Shown one piece after another: positions 29,402 through 37,065 of a stretch of DNA of 64,000 nucleotides. The first letter of the stretch is position 1; each line of letters opens with the position of its first letter. The DNA comes from Shinella granuli. Lineage in GTDB: Bacteria > Pseudomonadota > Alphaproteobacteria > Rhizobiales > Rhizobiaceae. The notes beneath the pieces were generated by a model. The model saw nothing but the letters and a program-made list of their open reading frames with translations. It ran no database searches and was not told the DNA's origin. The DNA lies in contig NZ_SLVX01000005.1 of assembly GCF_004341885.1 (NCBI RefSeq), forward strand, positions 1 to 64,000. Direction: 5' to 3'. A program made the translations under genes and the position numbers.

Positions 29402-29740
29402 TCAGACGAGCGCGGTGACCTGGATTTCGACCAGCAGTTCCGGCGCGGCGAGGCGGGCCTCGATCGTTGCGCGGACCGGCAGGTTGTCCGGATCGACCCA
29501 CTGGTCCCAGACGTCGTTCATCTGGGCGAAATGGGCGATGTCGCGCAGCCAGATGTTGGCGCTGATCAGCTTGGCCTTGGAAGTGCCGGCCTCGGCCAGA
29601 AGGCCGTCGATCGTGGCCAGGATGTCGCGGGTCTGGGCGACCGTGTCGGCGCCACTGCCGGTGACGCCGGCCGTGGTGACGACGCCGTTGACGACGACGG
29701 CCTGGCAGAAGCGCTTGCCGGGCTTGATACGCTGGATCAT
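29402..29740 (-). CDS. RidA family protein
   Basis: 112 residues, slightly short for RidA. It retains the family strands (VNGVVTTAGVTG, KAKLISANIWLRDIAHFAQMNDVWDQWVD) and the C-terminal RATIEARLAAPELLVEIQVTALV with the conserved Arg91 that binds the substrate carboxylate. RidA proteins hydrolyse imine/enamine products of PLP enzymes, so its position facing the phospho-lyase gene across a shared terminator makes functional sense, although it is transcribed separately. The ATG at 29740 is preceded by GGGAGA. Confidence 0.83.
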   Translation of the reverse strand: MIQRIKPGKRFCQAVVVNGVVTTAGVTGSGADTVAQTRDILATIDGLLAEAGTSKAKLISANIWLRDIAHFAQMNDVWDQWVDPDNLPVRATIEARLAAPELLVEIQVTALV

Positions 29741-29937
29741 GAAAAATCTCCCATGGTGTTGATCACAGATTGGTTTTGCCGAAAGCCGACGGGATGAAGC
29801 CGGCGCATTCCGCGCCGATCGGCGATGGCAGCGCGGCATCAATGCCCGAAACGCCGGGCGAGCGCAACTTGCCACTGAGCCTCGCCATTTCCAGAGCTGG
29901 CAAAGGCTCGCGCCGCCCTGCCACCGGCGGCCAGACA
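29741..29937. other. Gap without a recognised gene
   Basis: About 197 bases between the RidA start and the end of the lipid operon. It contains several GC-rich partial inverted repeats (GCCGGCGCATTCCGCGCCGA) but no convincing terminator with a T-run and no ORF with a start. It presumably holds the RidA promoter and the 3' end of the lipid operon. Confidence 0.4.
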
Positions 29938-30867
29938 CTACGTCCAGGCATAACGCACGATGTGAAAGAAGACGGGGGCGGCGAAGACGAGGCTGTCGGC
30001 GCGGTCGAGCATGCCGCCATGGCCCTCGATCATGTGGCCCCAGTCCTTCACCCCGCGGTCGCGCTTGATGGCGGAGGCGACGAGACCGCCGAAGAAGCCC
30101 ATGATGCAGGCGAGCGCCGCAAGCGCGCCGGCTTCGAGCGGCGAGAACGGCGTCAGCCAGTAGAGCCCGGCACCGAGCAGCGAGGCGCTGGCAATGCCGC
30201 CGATCAGCCCTTCCCAGGTCTTCGACGGCGAGATGCTCGGCGCCACCTTGTGCCTGCCGAAGAGCTTTCCGAAAATGTACTGCAGCACGTCGCTGCCCTG
30301 CACGGTGGCGATGAGGAAGGCGATGAGCAGCAGGCCCCGCCCCTCGTTGCCGGGAATGGGCAGCGTCACCAGCGCCGGCACATGGCTGATGCAATAGACC
30401 GACAGCATGATGCCCCATTGCTGCTCGCTGACCCGTTCGAGGAAGCGGGACGTGTCGCCGCGCATGGCCGTCAGCGCCGGCATGGCGAGGAAACAGTAGA
30501 CGGGGATGAAGATCGAATAGAGCCCGTACCAGTCGATCCAGATCAGGTAGTACTGCGCCGGAACGATGATCAGGAACATGCCGAGCAGCGTCCAGCGGTC
30601 GGCATGGCGCGTGTTGGTGAGGGTGACGTATTCGCGCAGCGCCGCGAAGGAGACGAAGGCGAAGAGCAGGATCACGCCGCCCGTGCCGAACAGGAAGGCG
30701 AGGCTGATGCCCGCCACCATGATCCACCAGGCCTTGATGCGGGCATTCAGGTTTTCGAGCGTTGCCGGCAGCGGTTTCTCGCTGCGCCAGGAAAGCACGC
30801 CGGCAACGAGGCTCGCGATGACGAGCACCGAGGCGAGGCCGAGGAAAAGACGCGTGTCGTCGCTCAT
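29938..30867 (-). CDS. Phosphatidate cytidylyltransferase (CdsA family, YnbB-like)
   Basis: 309 residues with about eight transmembrane helices. The C-terminal signature SAIKRDRGVKDWGHMIEGHGG followed by MLDRADSL (about 260-290) is the CDP-diglyceride synthase motif, and SPSKTWEGLIGG precedes it. The enzyme makes CDP-diacylglycerol from phosphatidate and CTP. It is the last gene of a six-gene lipid cluster and overlaps the acyltransferase by ATGA at 30864-30867 or so. This cannot be the housekeeping CdsA by context, which usually sits beside uppS and dxr. In E. coli the matching uncharacterised gene is ynbB. Regulation is presumably with the whole operon. Confidence 0.87.
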   Translation of the reverse strand: MSDDTRLFLGLASVLVIASLVAGVLSWRSEKPLPATLENLNARIKAWWIMVAGISLAFLFGTGGVILLFAFVSFAALREYVTLTNTRHADRWTLLGMFLIIVPAQYYLIWIDWYGLYSIFIPVYCFLAMPALTAMRGDTSRFLERVSEQQWGIMLSVYCISHVPALVTLPIPGNEGRGLLLIAFLIATVQGSDVLQYIFGKLFGRHKVAPSISPSKTWEGLIGGIASASLLGAGLYWLTPFSPLEAGALAALACIMGFFGGLVASAIKRDRGVKDWGHMIEGHGGMLDRADSLVFAAPVFFHIVRYAWT

Positions 30868-31520
30868 CAGCGGGTTCCATCCTTTCGGGGCGCAAGGGCG
30901 AGAAGCGCCGCGCGGGCGCGCTCGAGGAAGGCTTTTCGCTCCTCCCCTTCCTCCAGCACCAGCGGGGCGCCGAAGACGACGCGGCAGAGCAGCGGGACCG
31001 GCAACAGCGCACCCTTCGGCAGGACGCGCGACATGTTCTCGATCCAGCAGGGCACCAGCTCGACATCCGGGCGAAGCGCCGCGAGATTGTAGAGGCCGGA
31101 GCGGAAGCGCAGGAGCGGCTCCTCCGTCATGTTGCGCGTGCCCTCGGGAAAGAAGATCAGGGACTGGCCTGCATCGAGCGCGGCGAGCATCACCTGCATC
31201 GGATCGGCGGTGCGCTCCACCCAGTTGCGCTCGACGAGCACCGTGCGCAGCATCCTGCCGGAAATGAAGCGGCGAATCGGGCCGGCATTCCAGTAGTCCG
31301 CCCCGGCGACGGCGGCCGTGCGGCGGCGTTCGGCGAAGGGCAGGCAGGTGGAGACCAGGATGAAATCGCCATGGCTCGCATGGTTGGCGAAATAGATGCG
31401 TTGCCGGCCGTAGGGCGCCGAGCCGGCCCAGATCGGCCGCACGCCGGTGACGGCGCGCGAAAGGCCGGCGAGCATCGCGCCGGATACCGTCTGCAACAGG
31501 GATGCGTCGTTCGCGCTCAT
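30867..31520 (-). CDS. PlsC-like 1-acyl-glycerol-3-phosphate acyltransferase
   Basis: 217 residues of the PlsC/LPLAT superfamily. The catalytic block NHASHGD (His and Asp of the HX4D motif) is near residues 46-52, and the substrate-binding FFPEGTRN is near 124-131. An Arg-rich stretch RRFISGRMLRTVLVERNWVER lies between. The enzyme transfers an acyl chain to a lysophosphatidate-like or other hydroxylated lipid acceptor at the inner face of the membrane. The ATG at 31520 overlaps the upstream small gene by ATGA. No acyltransferase belongs to the E. coli ynbABCD set, so this is an extension of the rhizobial version. Confidence 0.85.
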   Translation of the reverse strand: MSANDASLLQTVSGAMLAGLSRAVTGVRPIWAGSAPYGRQRIYFANHASHGDFILVSTCLPFAERRRTAAVAGADYWNAGPIRRFISGRMLRTVLVERNWVERTADPMQVMLAALDAGQSLIFFPEGTRNMTEEPLLRFRSGLYNLAALRPDVELVPCWIENMSRVLPKGALLPVPLLCRVVFGAPLVLEEGEERKAFLERARAALLALAPRKDGTR

Positions 31521-31954
31521 GCCCCGCCTCCCTCCATCCCGTCGAGGAGCAGGATGAGGTAGAGCACGACGGCGACCGCCAATGCGATCCGCTGCAGCCA
31601 GAGCAGCCGCCGGCATCCCCGGAGGCGTTCCGGCAGCGTTGCCGAAACGCCGCCCCTGGCGCGAAGTCCCATGCGCGCCAGAACGTCATCGATGGCCGCA
31701 AGCCCCGCCGCTTCCCCGTCATGGGAGGCCGCGAGCTGGAAGAGCGCGGCATCGAACAGGAGATGCAGCGAAAGCGCCAGCGGCACGAGGCAGAAGGCGA
31801 GCAGCAGCCCCCAGGCGAGCGGCCCGGAAAAACCATGGGCGCCGGCCGTTGGCGGCGCCGCGGCGAGGATCAGCAGCGCCGCCGCCCCGCCGGCAAGGCC
31901 GTTGCGCCTCAGGCGCCGGACGGCATCCGCGACGATCGTCCGCCAGTCGGTCAT
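31517..31954 (-). CDS. Small multi-pass membrane protein of the lipid operon
   Basis: 145 residues I do not recognise. It has about three hydrophobic helices: one near 20-38 (GGAAALLILAAAPP), one near 45-70 (SGPLAWGLLLAFCLVPLALSLHLLFDAALF) and one near the C-terminus (IALAVAVVLYLILLLDGM). A cytoplasmic or periplasmic loop with several Arg lies between the second and third. ATGA overlaps at both ends (31517-31520 and 31951-31954) show that it is translated as part of the lipid operon. It could be a subunit or scaffold of the membrane enzymes. No catalytic motif is visible. Confidence 0.75.
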   Translation of the reverse strand: MTDWRTIVADAVRRLRRNGLAGGAAALLILAAAPPTAGAHGFSGPLAWGLLLAFCLVPLALSLHLLFDAALFQLAASHDGEAAGLAAIDDVLARMGLRARGGVSATLPERLRGCRRLLWLQRIALAVAVVLYLILLLDGMEGGGA

Positions 31955-33285
31955 CGCGCCGCCTCCTCGATCGCGGCATAGGTTTCCAGCGCAAGATGCA
32001 CCGGCCGCCCCTTCGCCCGGATCTGGGCGACGGCTGCGGCGGCACTGGCCGCAAGCCCCTTCCGCATCAGGACGCAGGCGGCGACGAGCGCGCTGCGCTG
32101 GAAGCCGAGCGCGCAGCAGACGAGCACCGGCCCATGCCGTCCCGCTTCCTCGGCGGCGAGCGCCGCGTCGCGGATGCGGGCGGCGGAGAGTGGCAGCAGA
32201 TCGAGCGTCGGGAAGGCGCGCCAGGAAAGGCCGGGAACGGCAAGGCCCGGCAGTTCCGCCGTCATGTCGATGACGGCGGCATAGGTCGAAAGGGCACGCC
32301 GCGTCGGCACCCGGCCGAGGAAGACGCCGTCGGCAATCTCGACGGCATCAGGCAGGCGCCGCGTCCACCACCAGGCGTTCACCCGCGCCCCCAGCCTGTA
32401 GGGCATCAGCAGCCAGCGGCTTGCGAAGCTGATGCGGCCATCGCCCTGTTTCTGGAACACATCCGGCCCGGCGCCGGCATAGGCGAGCGCGACGATGGCG
32501 AGGGCAAGCGCCGGCCAGAGCAGCAGCAACCCCGCCCCGGATCCAAACGTCGCCCACACCGCAAGGAACAGGAAGACCAGCGCACCGGCGGCATAATAGA
32601 GGGCGAGCCGCCGCGCCTTCCGATCGACCGTCAGGCGGAACCCTGCCAGCGGCGACGGCCGGCCGGCCGGGAACAGCCAGAGGGCGAAGAGGCCGAGCAG
32701 CGCGCCGGTCGGGATATCGATGCCGTGATGCTGCCAGGTGGTGAGGACGGAGACGCCGATCAGGACGCACCAGACATGCCAGACCGCCAGCATCGTTCCC
32801 CGTAGCCGCCCGCTCCAGTGATCCCAGATGATCACCAGCAGGGCGACATGCAGCGAAGGGGCCTGGTTGAACGGCTTGTCGAAGCCACCGAGCACGTCGA
32901 ACAGGAAACCCGGCAGCCCCTGCGTCTCCGGCCGCACGAAGATCGCCTGCAGCGGAAAGGCGATGAAGCAGAGAACGGCGAAGACCTGCGCCGTGAGGTA
33001 GCGCCGCGCCAGCCGGCCGACCTCCGCCGGCGTCTCGTTGACGAAGAGCGAGAGCGCATAGAAGGCGTTGATCGACCAGTAGGGCAGGATCGTCCAGGCG
33101 AGGAAGGGGATGTGCCGCTCCCAGCCGAAGGCAAGATTGGGCACGTCCGCCCGCTGCGCGGCCAGCCAGTTGGAAAAACCGTAGGTCAGGTAGAAGAACG
33201 GCGCCAGGAAGACGAGCCACAGCGCCGCGGCGCGAAAAACCGCGCGGCGATCGACGGCAAGGACAGATGCGACGCCCTCCCCCAT
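31951..33285 (-). CDS. PAP2 phosphatase fused to dual-specificity phosphatase domain (YnbD-like)
   Basis: 444 residues. The N-terminal 250 are a membrane PAP2 domain with PSLHVALLVIIWDHW near 140 and TWQHHGIDIPTGALLG near 183-198, matching the second and third PAP2 motifs. The C-terminal 120 form a cytosolic dual-specificity phosphatase with the Cys-X5-Arg loop VLVCCALGFQRSA near 395; the usual His before the catalytic Cys is replaced by Cys. This fusion matches E. coli YnbD. It could remove phosphate from a lipid phosphate intermediate, while the second domain acts on a head-group phosphate or regulates. It begins seven bases after the end of the hydrolase/methyltransferase gene. Confidence 0.85.
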   Translation of the reverse strand: MGEGVASVLAVDRRAVFRAAALWLVFLAPFFYLTYGFSNWLAAQRADVPNLAFGWERHIPFLAWTILPYWSINAFYALSLFVNETPAEVGRLARRYLTAQVFAVLCFIAFPLQAIFVRPETQGLPGFLFDVLGGFDKPFNQAPSLHVALLVIIWDHWSGRLRGTMLAVWHVWCVLIGVSVLTTWQHHGIDIPTGALLGLFALWLFPAGRPSPLAGFRLTVDRKARRLALYYAAGALVFLFLAVWATFGSGAGLLLLWPALALAIVALAYAGAGPDVFQKQGDGRISFASRWLLMPYRLGARVNAWWWTRRLPDAVEIADGVFLGRVPTRRALSTYAAVIDMTAELPGLAVPGLSWRAFPTLDLLPLSAARIRDAALAAEEAGRHGPVLVCCALGFQRSALVAACVLMRKGLAASAAAAVAQIRAKGRPVHLALETYAAIEEAAR

Positions 33286-33292
33286 GGCCGCC

Positions 33293-35029
33293 TCAGATGC
33301 GCTCGGCCAGCGAGACGGTGAAGATGCCCCATTTGTCGATGCGCTGCTCGACCTTGCGGAAGCCGGCGGCCGCCACGAGCTGGTCCATCTCCTGCTGGGT
33401 GCGCCGGCGCATGATCCAGGCCTCGCCGTCGCGATGCGAGGTCAGCGCCCGGGCGATCATTTCGAGCTGCGGATGCCAGGGCTGGCCGGTATAGAGGAGC
33501 AGCGCCCCCGGCTCCATCGCCCGCGCGAGGCCGGCCAGCGAGGCCTCGATCAGGGCATTGTCCGGGAAGAGCTCGTAGAGGCCGGAGACGATGGCGAGCG
33601 TCGGCCGCGGGGTGATCGCGGCAAGTCCCTCCGTGTCGAAGGCGTCCGCCCGGTGGAATTCCGCCACGGCCGAGAGGCCGCGCCCGGCGATCAGCGCCGT
33701 GCCCTTCTCCACGTTGATCGGCGAATAGTCCTGCAGGCGGATGCTCTCCGGCTTCGCCTCGGACGCCGCGACCGCATCGAGCACGTAGCGCCCGTGGCCG
33801 GCGGCGATGTCGAGCACGCGCAGCGGCCGTCCCTCGGCCTTCAGGCGTGCCAGCGCCTTGCCGATCAGTTCCTCCAGATGGACCTTGCGCTGGCGGATGC
33901 CGCGCCAGCCGATCGCGTCGAGGAACTGCCGGTCGATCAGCCGTCCGCCGGGGCCGAGGCCGCGGGCCTCGTCCTCATAGACATAGTCGAGCGTCGAGCC
34001 GGAATCGAAGCCGGTGCGCAAACCCGTCTCGATGCCCCCGGAGAAGAGGCCGCCGAGGCGGATCGAGGCGCGCGTCAGCGCCCAGTAGAGCCCGCGCGGG
34101 GAGAGCAGCGACAGCGGCGTCGCCAGCCGGTCGGCCTCGTCGCGGGTATGGCCGGAAAGATGCGCGCGCCGCAGATCCGCCACCACGGGCGGCTCGGCGA
34201 AACGCTGGAGGAGGAAGGTCCGCACCTTTTCGAGCGCCTTCGCCCGGTCCCGCTCGCCGAGCGTGTCATGATAGAAGCCGGGCAGCACATGGCGCTCCTT
34301 GATCGTGCTGCCGAGATTTTCGAAGAAGCGGTGCTGCGGCGCATGGCGCACGACGAAATCGCTGCCGGAGACGAGAAGCTGCGTCGGCACCGTGATGGCA
34401 CGCGCATCGGCGACCACCCGGTCCGCCGCCTCGTAGAGTTCCAGGAGGATGTTGGAGGCGATGGGGCGGGTGATCAGCGGATCGGCCTCGAAGGAGGCGA
34501 TGCGCTCCGGATCATGCGTCAGGAAACGGGCCTTGACGTAGGAATTGACGAAGAACGTGCCCTTGAGCTTCTGCCAGAGCGCAATGCCCTCCCTGGCGAA
34601 GGGCACGTAGAGCTTCACGTCGAAGGCGGGCGAGGCCAGCACCAGCGCACGGATATCCGGCGCATAGTCATGCACCCAGGTGGAGGCCAGCACGGCGCCG
34701 ACGCTCTGGGCGACGACGGCGACCTGGTCCATGGAAAAGCCGCCGGTCTCGCTTATATGGCGGACGAAGCAGTCGAGATCGCGTACCGAATGGGCGAAGG
34801 ACGGCGAATGGCCGCGCTCGCCGGGCGACCGGCCATGGCCGCGCGCATCCCAGGCGTAGAAGGCGAAGTCGTCGAGCCCGAGCTCCTCGGCGATATGCGC
34901 CACCCGGCCGCTGTGCTCATGGCCCCGGTGCAGCAGAACGACCGCGCCTTTCGCCGCGCCGGACCGGGCGGGCCAGGCACGGTAGAAAAGCTCCACGCCG
35001 TCATGGCTCGCAAAGGCGGATTCGATCAT
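33293..35029 (-). CDS. Bifunctional alpha/beta hydrolase and SAM-dependent methyltransferase (YnbC-like)
   Basis: 578 residues. Residues 1-290 are a monoacylglycerol-lipase-like alpha/beta hydrolase: RGHEHSGRVAHIAEEL, WDARGHGRSPGERG, a nucleophile elbow AQSVGA (Ser near 109), an acid in VSGSDFVV and the histidine in GFYHDTLGE. Residues from about 350 on are a class I methyltransferase with motif I VLDIAAGHGRYVLD and IRLQDYSPINVEKG. The same fusion is E. coli YnbC. It may deacylate a lipid and methylate the head group or product. It is the first gene of the minus-strand lipid operon, divergent from the CDP-alcohol phosphotransferase. Confidence 0.85.
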   Translation of the reverse strand: MIESAFASHDGVELFYRAWPARSGAAKGAVVLLHRGHEHSGRVAHIAEELGLDDFAFYAWDARGHGRSPGERGHSPSFAHSVRDLDCFVRHISETGGFSMDQVAVVAQSVGAVLASTWVHDYAPDIRALVLASPAFDVKLYVPFAREGIALWQKLKGTFFVNSYVKARFLTHDPERIASFEADPLITRPIASNILLELYEAADRVVADARAITVPTQLLVSGSDFVVRHAPQHRFFENLGSTIKERHVLPGFYHDTLGERDRAKALEKVRTFLLQRFAEPPVVADLRRAHLSGHTRDEADRLATPLSLLSPRGLYWALTRASIRLGGLFSGGIETGLRTGFDSGSTLDYVYEDEARGLGPGGRLIDRQFLDAIGWRGIRQRKVHLEELIGKALARLKAEGRPLRVLDIAAGHGRYVLDAVAASEAKPESIRLQDYSPINVEKGTALIAGRGLSAVAEFHRADAFDTEGLAAITPRPTLAIVSGLYELFPDNALIEASLAGLARAMEPGALLLYTGQPWHPQLEMIARALTSHRDGEAWIMRRRTQQEMDQLVAAAGFRKVEQRIDKWGIFTVSLAERI

Positions 35030-35100
35030 GCTGTCATCTCTCCTGCGGAAACCTCAGCACCTATACGGATGAGGACGCATGTTTGCAGTTGATTTCATGT

Positions 35101-35133
35101 CGATTGCATCCTCTTTTGTTGCACGCAATCGAG
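35101..35133. promoter_or_regulatory. Inverted repeat in the divergent lipid-operon promoter
   Basis: TCGATTGC (35101-35108) and GCAATCGA (35126-35133) form a perfect eight-base inverted repeat in the 119-base gap between the divergent YnbC-like and YnbA-like genes. A single bound regulator could control both directions. No regulator gene lies nearby. Confidence 0.4.
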
Positions 35134-35148
35134 CGGATTCGAGCTGAC

Positions 35149-35745
35149 ATGTCGATCTATAAACTGAAATCGTCCTTCCAGAACCTGCTTCGCCCGCTGG
35201 TGGGGCGGCTGGCGGCCATGGGCGTCACGGCCAACCAGGTGACGCTGATCGCCGCGCTCGTCTCGGTGGGGATCGGCGCGCTGCTCCTCGTCAATCCGGC
35301 GCCCGCCCTTTTCGCGCTCGTTCCCGTCTGGATGCTGCTGCGCATGGGGCTCAACGCCATCGACGGCATGCTCGCCCGCGAACACGGCCAGAAGAGCCCG
35401 CTCGGCGGCTATCTCAACGAGATCACCGATGTCGTCTCCGATGCCGCGCTCTACCTGCCCTTCGCGCTGGTGGCGCCCTTTTCCCTGCCGTGGTTCACCG
35501 CCATCGTCTTCCTCGCGGCGCTGACGGAGTTCGCCGGCGTGCTCGGCGTCGCCCATGGCAACGGCCGCAGCTACGAGGGGCCGATGGGCAAGAGCGACCG
35601 GGCCCTCCTCTTCGGCGCGCTCGGCGCCCTCGTCGCCGGTTTCGGCACGCTGCCGGCCTGGACATGGCATATCCAGCCGATCGCCTGCGTGCTGCTCGCC
35701 TGGACGGTCGCCAACCGGGTGCGGGCCGGCCTCACCGGACCGTAG
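35149..35745 (+). CDS. CDP-alcohol phosphatidyltransferase family protein (YnbA-like)
   Basis: 198 residues with about six transmembrane helices. It should transfer a phosphatidyl group from CDP-diacylglycerol to an alcohol. The family motif D-x2-DG-x2-AR-x8-G-x3-D-x3-D appears as NAIDGMLAR, eight residues, then GGYLNEITD near residues 68-94, so the first and third Asp are Asn here while the second and fourth are kept. The flanking sequence otherwise fits the family. The ATG at 35149 (MSIYKLKSSFQNLLRP) is the conserved start. It is divergent from the rest of the lipid cluster and resembles E. coli YnbA. The acceptor alcohol is unknown. Confidence 0.85.
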   Translation: MSIYKLKSSFQNLLRPLVGRLAAMGVTANQVTLIAALVSVGIGALLLVNPAPALFALVPVWMLLRMGLNAIDGMLAREHGQKSPLGGYLNEITDVVSDAALYLPFALVAPFSLPWFTAIVFLAALTEFAGVLGVAHGNGRSYEGPMGKSDRALLFGALGALVAGFGTLPAWTWHIQPIACVLLAWTVANRVRAGLTGP

Positions 35746-35748
35746 CCG

Positions 35749-37065
35749 TCAGCGCTTCTCGCCGAAGCGGCGCGGCGTCGGCCGGCCGGTGACCTGGTCC
35801 CAGTGCTCGTCGGCCCGCCGCTCGAAGGTCCCCGCCTCTCGGGCGTCGCTCTGGTAGAAGGCGCCGCGCGGAACATCCGGCGCGTAGACCTGCTCGCTCC
35901 AGCCCCGCCCGTCGTCATGAGGGAAGGCATAACCGACATGGCCGAGCGCCGCCGCGCCCTTGTAATGCGCATCGCGCAGATGCATCGGCACCGCCGACGG
36001 CGCCTCATTCGCCACATGGGCGAGCGCCAGCGAAATGCCGCGGCAGGCGGAGTTCGACTTCGGCGCCCGGGCGACGTGCAGGGCGGCATGGGCAAGGATG
36101 ATCTGCGCCTCGGGGTAACCGATCTTCTCCACCGCATGCAGCGCGGCCACCGCCGTCTGCAGCGCTGTGTTGTCGGCAAGGCCGACATCCTCGGAGGCAT
36201 GGATCATGATGCGGCGCGCGATGTAGCGCGGGTCCTCGCCGCCATGGATCAGCCGGGCAAGCCAGTAGAGCGTCGCATCGGGATCGGAGCCGCGCATCGA
36301 TTTCACGAAAGCCGAGACCACGTCGTAATGCGCATCGCCCGACCGGTCGTGGTTGACGGGCGCGGCTGCATAGGCCTCCTCGACCATCGCCTCGGTGATG
36401 ATGACGGGTTTTCCCGGCGCGTGCCCGACGGCAAGGCTTTCGAGAACCGTCAGCGCCCGCCGCGCGTCGCCGCCGGAGCGGCCCGCGATGCGGCGCAACT
36501 GGGCGGGCTCCAGTTCCACCGCGATGCCCCGCGCCGCCAGATGGCGAAGCCCCCGCCGCACCACTTCCTCCATCTCTTCCAGCGTCAGCGGCTCCAGCTT
36601 CAGGATGGTCGAACGGGAGATGAGCGCGGGCGTCAGCGTGTGGTAGGGATTGCCGGTCGTCGCGCCGATGAAGTCGGCGACGCCTTCCTCGCAGAGCGCA
36701 AGGAGATGGTCCTGCTGCGTCGCGCTGAAGCGATGCACCTCGTCCGCGAAGAGCAGGGTCGGCCGCATGCGCGCCTCGTCGGCGATCTTGCGGATGTCGG
36801 CCACGTTGTTGTGCGCGGCGTGCAGCGGGCGAAAGTTCTTGCCGAGCATGTTGCCGATGGCGCGCGCGATCGACGTCTTGCCGAGGCCGGGCGGGCCGTA
36901 GAGCACGATGCTGCCGAGCCGTCCGGCCGCGATGCGCCGGCGCAGCATGGTGCCCTCGCCGATGATCTTCTCCTGGCCGATCACGTCGTCCAGGCTCGCC
37001 GGGCGCAGCTCTGCGGCGAGCGGCATGGCGCCGGGGCGCGGCGCGGCGTCGAAAAGATCGGTCAT
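35749..37065 (-). CDS. rarA: Replication-associated recombination protein A (MgsA/RarA AAA+ ATPase)
   Basis: 438 residues, the usual RarA length. It is a clamp-loader-like AAA+ ATPase that acts at stalled replication forks. The N-terminus AAELRPASLDDVIGQEKII is the family start. Walker A is YGPPGLGKTS near 56-65, Walker B is LLFADEVHRF near 104-113, sensor 1 is FIGATTGNP, and the C-terminal tetramerisation region includes HASEDVGLADNTAL and ALAHVANEAPSAVPMHLRDAHYKGA. It ends three bases from the YnbA-like stop, tail-to-tail. The upstream sulfonate operon ends at a strong terminator, so it should have its own promoter in the 129-base gap. Confidence 0.95.
   Translation of the reverse strand: MTDLFDAAPRPGAMPLAAELRPASLDDVIGQEKIIGEGTMLRRRIAAGRLGSIVLYGPPGLGKTSIARAIGNMLGKNFRPLHAAHNNVADIRKIADEARMRPTLLFADEVHRFSATQQDHLLALCEEGVADFIGATTGNPYHTLTPALISRSTILKLEPLTLEEMEEVVRRGLRHLAARGIAVELEPAQLRRIAGRSGGDARRALTVLESLAVGHAPGKPVIITEAMVEEAYAAAPVNHDRSGDAHYDVVSAFVKSMRGSDPDATLYWLARLIHGGEDPRYIARRIMIHASEDVGLADNTALQTAVAALHAVEKIGYPEAQIILAHAALHVARAPKSNSACRGISLALAHVANEAPSAVPMHLRDAHYKGAAALGHVGYAFPHDDGRGWSEQVYAPDVPRGAFYQSDAREAGTFERRADEHWDQVTGRPTPRRFGEKR

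Follow-up and report, generated by a model that had tools for sequence, protein, structure and literature searches.

Organization of the Locus

Positions 29938–35745 of a 64,000-nucleotide stretch of Shinella granuli DNA (contig NZ_SLVX01000005.1, positions 1 to 64,000; hereafter, the window) hold six genes, which we call A, B, C, D, P and S. Judged by sequence, these genes are the Shinella version of a cluster that many bacteria share, known as arc1 in Pseudomonas aeruginosa and represented by ynbABCD in Escherichia coli; by gene content, the locus is an ordinary member of this known kind. A first-pass annotation of the window had compared the set with ynbABCD and missed the six-gene form already known as arc1, for which a defence role is described (PMC8926400, PMC12663445). 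The ynbABCD-like set that it had recognized was borne out, since identity to the E. coli proteins is 45% for A (YnbA), 57% for C (YnbC) and 37% for D (YnbD), and YnbB gave a profile match of 365 bits to B. The additional PlsC-like acyltransferase and small membrane protein were found as well, being P and S, and its statement that no product is established for the ynb set agrees with the published literature searched, in which we found none for the arc1/ynb lipid.

Five of the genes form a run, C-D-S-P-B, on the minus strand. Gene C (ynbC-like; 33293–35029, 578 aa) encodes Hydrolase_4 and Methyltransf_20 domains (Pfam, 497 and 238.7 bits); gene D (ynbD-like; 31951–33285, 444 aa) encodes a six-helix membrane domain of the PAP2 superfamily and a C-terminal dual-specificity phosphatase (DSP) domain; gene S (31517–31954) encodes a small membrane protein of 145 aa without known family; gene P (30867–31520, 217 aa) encodes a PlsC-like lysophospholipid acyltransferase (PF01553, 62.4 bits); and gene B (ynbB-like; 29938–30867, 309 aa) encodes a CdsA-like phosphatidate cytidylyltransferase (CTP_transf_1, PF01148, 232.3 bits), scoring 107 bits against NCBIfam PRK11624, under the cut-off of that family. 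Gene A (arc1A/ynbA-like; 35149–35745, 198 aa), encoding a CDP-alcohol phosphotransferase (CDP-OH_P_transf, PF01066, 33.9 bits and, thus, above the curated cut-off of 22), lies on the plus strand, 119 bp from C. Because A diverges from C on the opposite strand, the locus consists of two transcription units, and the single operon proposed earlier for the whole stretch has to be abandoned. Of the ATGA overlaps ascribed to that operon, two were confirmed, D/S and S/P; P and B share one base, and a gap of 7 bp separates C from D. The C/A intergenic region (35030–35148, 119 bp) has 50% GC versus 68% in the cluster, and both promoters likely lie within it. None of the six genes contains an internal stop; all are genuine, intact and conserved.

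The Active Site of A

The CDP-alcohol phosphotransferase signature, D1xxD2GxxAR...GxxxD3xxxD4, comprises eight residues described as absolutely conserved, D1–D3 being metal ligands and D4 the likely base (PMC4634129). The PgsA1 enzyme of Mycobacterium tuberculosis coordinates Mg-1 through D1, D2 and D3, and Mg-2 through D3 and D4 (PMC6506517). The motif of A in the window, NAIDGMLAREHGQKSPLGGYLNEITD, has N69 at D1 and N90 at D3, with the other six signature positions retained; in a PDB profile alignment, both residues stand opposite Asp residues of PgsA1. The same N/N motif is present in E. coli YnbA. Asn occupied both D1 and D3 in 125 out of 125 A reads counted at a threshold of at least 150 bits, with L073 (69 bits) and L161 (135 bits) left out; these reads represent 118 distinct core sequences and include seven identical pairs, some of which are one genome drawn twice. 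The single exception at D4 among the 125 reads is given by L161, where A lies in two frames.

Ten weaker matches to the A profile form a sister family, A'. When 28 A sequences were aligned with them, Asn was found at D1 in 27 of the 28 (the exception being the divergent, lone A protein of L219, which has Ala there) and at D3 in all 28, while all ten A' have Asn at both positions and lack the signature Arg. Glu or Asp directly follows N90, and Asp stands at D4, in all 38 proteins. As a control, motifs of other CDP-alcohol transferases from relatives were taken from 30 loci (PssA-type rows were read by eye; L242, L243, L244 and L254 had no readable motif), and all 26 readable ones carried Asp at D1 and D3; the N/N site is therefore a feature of the A branch and not of the host. 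Thus, two Asp residues of the family signature are replaced by Asn in A, giving a predicted altered metal site. We found no published description of such a site, our literature search not being aimed at that point alone.

The nearest NCBIfam relatives of A are the archaetidylinositol phosphate (AIP) and phosphatidylinositol phosphate (PIP) synthases, whose cut-offs A misses by a wide margin (70.5 of 180 and, for PIPSynth, 48.5 of 170 bits). R190 of A matches R195 of PgsA1, Arg being present in 27 of the 28 A proteins and replaced by a gap in one truncated copy; R151 is one residue off PgsA1 R155 in the profile alignment; and the position of PgsA1 R94 is occupied by V, I or M in all 28.

Genes C, D and S

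The hydrolase half of C is monoglyceride-lipase-like, with S109, D224 and H254 as invariant residues, and its PDB relatives are monoacylglycerol lipases. It is fused to the Methyltransf_20 domain, for which NCBIfam gave no informative match. For D of the window itself, the DSP match was weak and did not reach the Pfam cut-off, and PAP2 was not matched; of 15 family members, 12 matched PAP2_3 and 11 matched PAP2 at E ≤ 1, and a PAP2-type membrane domain was also seen in the structure model (AlphaFold, fold searches). The His-His-Asp set of this domain (H146, H186, D190) is invariant in the alignment, as are, in 26 sequences, the Cx5R motif of the DSP domain (C391, R397) and D362, presumably its general acid. 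The solved folds closest to the membrane model were sphingomyelin synthase-related protein (SMSr) and the inositol phosphorylceramide (IPC) synthase Aur1, with moderate scores and 188–203 residues covered, lipid phosphatases coming close behind in the ranking. By sequence, nothing in the PDB matched this domain significantly (the best hits were phospholipid phosphatase 1, E 0.07, and designed proteins). This would make D a possible head-group transferase. For the DSP domain, PTPMT1 in complex with PI(5)P, a phosphatidylinositol (PI) phosphate, was at the top of the fold list, tied. S had no Pfam or NCBIfam match and shows 6 invariant columns among 14 aligned sequences.

Distribution of the Cluster

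Homologues were collected from whole genomes, and the first-pass view of a lipid-related set conserved as a cluster was borne out. In a set of 80 named loci selected for the presence of C, 60 carry the complete six-gene set (P being counted there at 180 bits or more). Of the remainder, 11 Rhizobium loci have A-C-D-S with neither P nor B, several are interrupted by the end of a contig, and single variants have lost S (L133), A (L163) or both D and S (L103). A is co-directional with C in 51 of the 80 loci, divergent in 26 and not found in 3. A 717-aa WG-repeat protein is encoded between C and D in one locus (L096:9008-11158), and in one Shinella genome (L071), C and P are each split in two frames, which points to gene decay or to errors in the sequence.

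In a draw of 398 genomes from the phylum, 27 had a match to PF12147, the family of the methyltransferase half of C. A was present in all 27 at 175 bits or more, and their loci contained all six genes in 23 cases, P and B in 24, and D and S in 25. Among 61 relatives, PF12147 was found in 21: 19 of 21 Shinella genomes, none of 16 genomes from elsewhere in the family, and two of the 24 taken from the order, where the match is methyltransferase-only in each case. Within Shinella the genes are not scattered, since they were kept together, with A divergent, in all 18 same-genus loci fetched. Outside Shinella the cluster is patchy, given that C was found in 0 of these 16 genomes of other family genera and in 4 of the 16 listed in the phylum draw. 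Overall, its range extends across Proteobacteria, including most E. coli genomes, and to some Acidobacteria assemblies and enterobacterial plasmids.

The genome record nearest to C is from Shinella yambaruensis (98%), and Shinella sp. HZN7 has a plasmid record containing C at 99.3%. PLSDB holds a C-like sequence in 34 records; as 13 of these are from Shinella, the cluster is probably located on a large plasmid or chromid in this genus. All six genes are present on a Citrobacter IncF plasmid, in the order A B P C D S. On a conjugative plasmid of E. coli, transposon genes come after A B P C. It is two observations only, the patchiness and the plasmids, that suggest horizontal transfer of the cluster. 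The clusters of the enterobacterial plasmids L264 (NZ_CP027341) and L265 (NZ_CP053574), of which one is typed as conjugative, are arc1-like and differ from the chromosomal ynb genes.

In the window, the cluster is flanked by genes for an endoribonuclease L-PSP (RidA-type; 29405–29830, minus strand) and an MgsA/RarA-type AAA+ ATPase (35752–37065, minus strand). The window gave no Rfam match at the gathering threshold, and PADLOC found no known anti-phage defence system, returning a weak partial match only (mad2, 22.9 bits, to the methyltransferase part of C).

The P-B-A Core

A search with the A profile returned 37 matches of at least 175 bits, the next one scoring 75.6 bits. P and B lie near A in 32 of these 37 loci. 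Ten of the 37 genomes have A without C: eight of them keep A, B and P together, L218 is truncated and has A and B only, and L219 has A alone. Among the ten A' loci, nine have P- and B-like neighbours. In these nine (among L220–L229, e.g., L223:2367-4648 and L225:2335-4654), with their PlsC-like and CdsA-like genes, the rest of arc1 is absent. Two loci from the same order as Shinella (L072, L073) combine P, B and A with a methyltransferase-only C. TetR-family regulator genes adjoin both of these clusters (L072:5042-5638, L073:8955-9560), and in a minimal A-B-P locus, P is followed by a gene for a VTT-domain (DedA-like) membrane protein (L214:861-1397), with a Pfam score below the curated cut-off.

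In two Rhizobium genomes whose arc1 locus has no P or B, relatives of both were found elsewhere in the genome: beside A' in one (G103), and paired in the other (G311), with no recognizable A' within the 10 kb fetched. The cluster-less Shinella genomes G005 and G016 yielded no relative of P and only weak matches to B. From the neighbourhood counts at A and A' loci, our working reading is that A, the PlsC-like P and the CdsA-like B form the recurrent core, C, D and S being responsible for finishing steps.

Proposed Pathway and Alternatives

The genome encodes three other PF01066 proteins, with motifs that look like those of PgsA, PssA and Pcs; it also has one other CTP_transf_1 protein and three other PF01553 acyltransferases. 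As the CDP-alcohol transferase, CdsA and PlsC steps are thereby duplicated elsewhere, the cluster is a pathway parallel to housekeeping lipid synthesis. The pathway is not self-contained, contrary to the first-pass annotation, because no gene of the set would acylate glycerol-3-phosphate or make the head-group acceptor.

The scenario we favour, with a confidence that is about evenly balanced, is that P, B and A form a dedicated line for an uncommon phospholipid, which is finished by methylation and head-group editing and helps membranes to withstand lipases. P would acylate lysophosphatidate (or another lysolipid) to phosphatidate, B would convert the latter to CDP-diacylglycerol, and A would move the phosphatidyl group onto a polar acceptor, giving the uncommon phospholipid. 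A would work via its atypical site, with Asn at D1 and D3, an acidic residue after N90, and D2, the nucleotide contacts and the base D4 retained; at most one tightly bound metal is expected. Its acceptor is probably phosphorylated, since the Arg matching PgsA1 R195 is retained, and would not be inositol phosphate. The methyltransferase half of C would then methylate the product of A, and D would edit its head group via the SMS/IPC-synthase-like membrane domain and the DSP domain. The lipase half of C may clear lysolipid or misacylated species, and S could be a scaffold or regulator. The finished product would raise membrane tolerance to phospholipase attack by rival bacteria. The P and B steps are taken from knowledge of their families; the roles of D and S, like the acceptors in the A reaction and in the methyl transfer, are inferred.

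A bolder version, which we put forward tentatively and consider rather doubtful as a whole, is that A and A' together are an unrecognized branch of CDP-alcohol phosphotransferases (NxxDGxxA...GxxxN[E/D]xxD, the metal site having two of four Asp fewer), served by a modular PlsC/CdsA line in cis or in trans and making an undescribed methylated phospholipid that protects from lipase weapons. In this version, the displaced acidic residue next to N90, close to where PgsA1 (A90) has its acceptor pocket, would favour an acceptor carrying an amine, which the methyltransferase could then methylate. Should the product prove to be a lipid that resists lipases, this would account for a general defence of bacteria against lipases of the type VI secretion system (T6SS) and bring a further enzyme class into phospholipid synthesis. 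The altered metal site of A, the P-B-A core and D as a possible head-group transferase turn a vague lipid operon into directly testable chemistry.

Among the alternatives, the one that survives best, though we regard it as unlikely, is repair: the lysophospholipids and fatty acids that lipases leave behind in membranes are cleared and ordinary phospholipid is rebuilt. D would take the head group off lysolipids, acting like a phospholipase C or a transferase, the resulting monoglyceride would be broken by the lipase half of C, P would re-acylate lysophosphatidate for B and A to rebuild phospholipid, and the methyltransferase half of C would cap free fatty acids as methyl esters. Such a cycle fits the monoglyceride-lipase fold of C, the SMSr/Aur1-like domain, the acyltransferase and the lipase protection by arc1A (PMC12663445). 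However, A, B and P occur alone, or with the methyltransferase half only, in loci without hydrolase, D or S, which argues that synthesis came first, and an atypical A is unneeded for ordinary phospholipid. Nor does NCBIfam offer an informative family match tying Methyltransf_20 to methyl-ester activity, and we know of no such activity for this family. Moreover, the arc1 study credits lysolipid control in P. aeruginosa to arc3 and aas (PMC8926400).

A quite improbable alternative starts from YnbB, a CdsA paralogue studied earlier in E. coli (PMC6362211): B would make GlcNAc-PP-diacylglycerol as a backup for the glycolipid MPIase, and the other genes would extend or support this step. Overproduction of YnbB raises MPIase, and the protein was proposed as a backup for MPIase rather than phospholipid synthesis (PMC6362211, PMC7018664); yet deletion of ynbB alone leaves MPIase unchanged (PMC6362211), and this proposal gives no role to the lipase, the methyltransferase, D or P and leaves the constant link with A unexplained. 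It is very improbable that the cluster is a spare PgsA/PgpB route to phosphatidylglycerol (PG), although four of the six arc1 products were likened to PG-synthesis enzymes by Ting et al. (PMC8926400). A lacks the active-site Asp pattern of PgsA, the genome has its own PgsA (by motif and PF01066 rank), and E. coli YnbD is described as rescuing neither PG phosphate (PGP) nor undecaprenyl pyrophosphate (C55-PP) phosphatase mutants (PMC7413402). Finally, PI synthesis, with A as PIP synthase and the DSP domain of D as PIP phosphatase, would match the nearest NCBIfam families of A, the R190–R195 correspondence and the tied first place of PTPMT1, but is the least credible, for those family scores are far below cut-off, myo-inositol-1-phosphate synthase (Inos-1-P_synth, PF01658) has no match in the genome, and the R94 equivalent, hydrophobic in every A aligned, is always K/R and critical according to the PgsA1 study (PMC6506517).

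Comparison with Known Systems

In P. aeruginosa, PA2541-36 corresponds to arc1A-F, six genes with five lipid enzymes; arc1 is induced by Gac/Rsm and needed against T6SS attack by Burkholderia thailandensis, a need that was not linked to any one effector tested (PMC8926400). A 2025 paper adds that arc1A is needed for full resistance to lipase effectors and is auxiliary to arc3A (PMC12663445). Both papers show this protection in P. aeruginosa only (PMC8926400, PMC12663445), and PA2537, found in a colony-morphology and airway-fitness screen, is listed as a probable acyltransferase (PMC2246019). The Shinella set likewise has six genes, five of them lipid-related, a likeness drawn via the published description of arc1; the acyltransferase annotation of PA2537 fits the order A C D S P B of many loci. 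PA2538–PA2541 and PA2536 would match the other cluster genes one by one. A is divergent in Shinella, so a single operon is not found there, and Gac/Rsm control, described as restricted to gammaproteobacteria (PMC8926400), would not apply.

E. coli ynbABCD resembles the Shinella set in having the homologues of A, B, C and D adjacent, and differs in their order, A B C D, all co-directional, with P and S not alongside. At least 80% of the ynbABCD stretch was found in one place in 4242 of 5426 E. coli genomes. An insertion sequence lies inside the stretch in each of the five best among the matches listed (ecoli_genomes H35–H39).

The PIP and AIP synthases, the nearest profile families of A, share with it D2, G, A, R, G, D4 and the equivalent of R195; A differs from them by Asn at D1 and D3 and a hydrophobic R94 equivalent, in a genome without inositol-phosphate synthase. 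From SMSr and Aur1, the nearest solved folds to its membrane domain, D differs in turn by the fusion to a DSP phosphatase.

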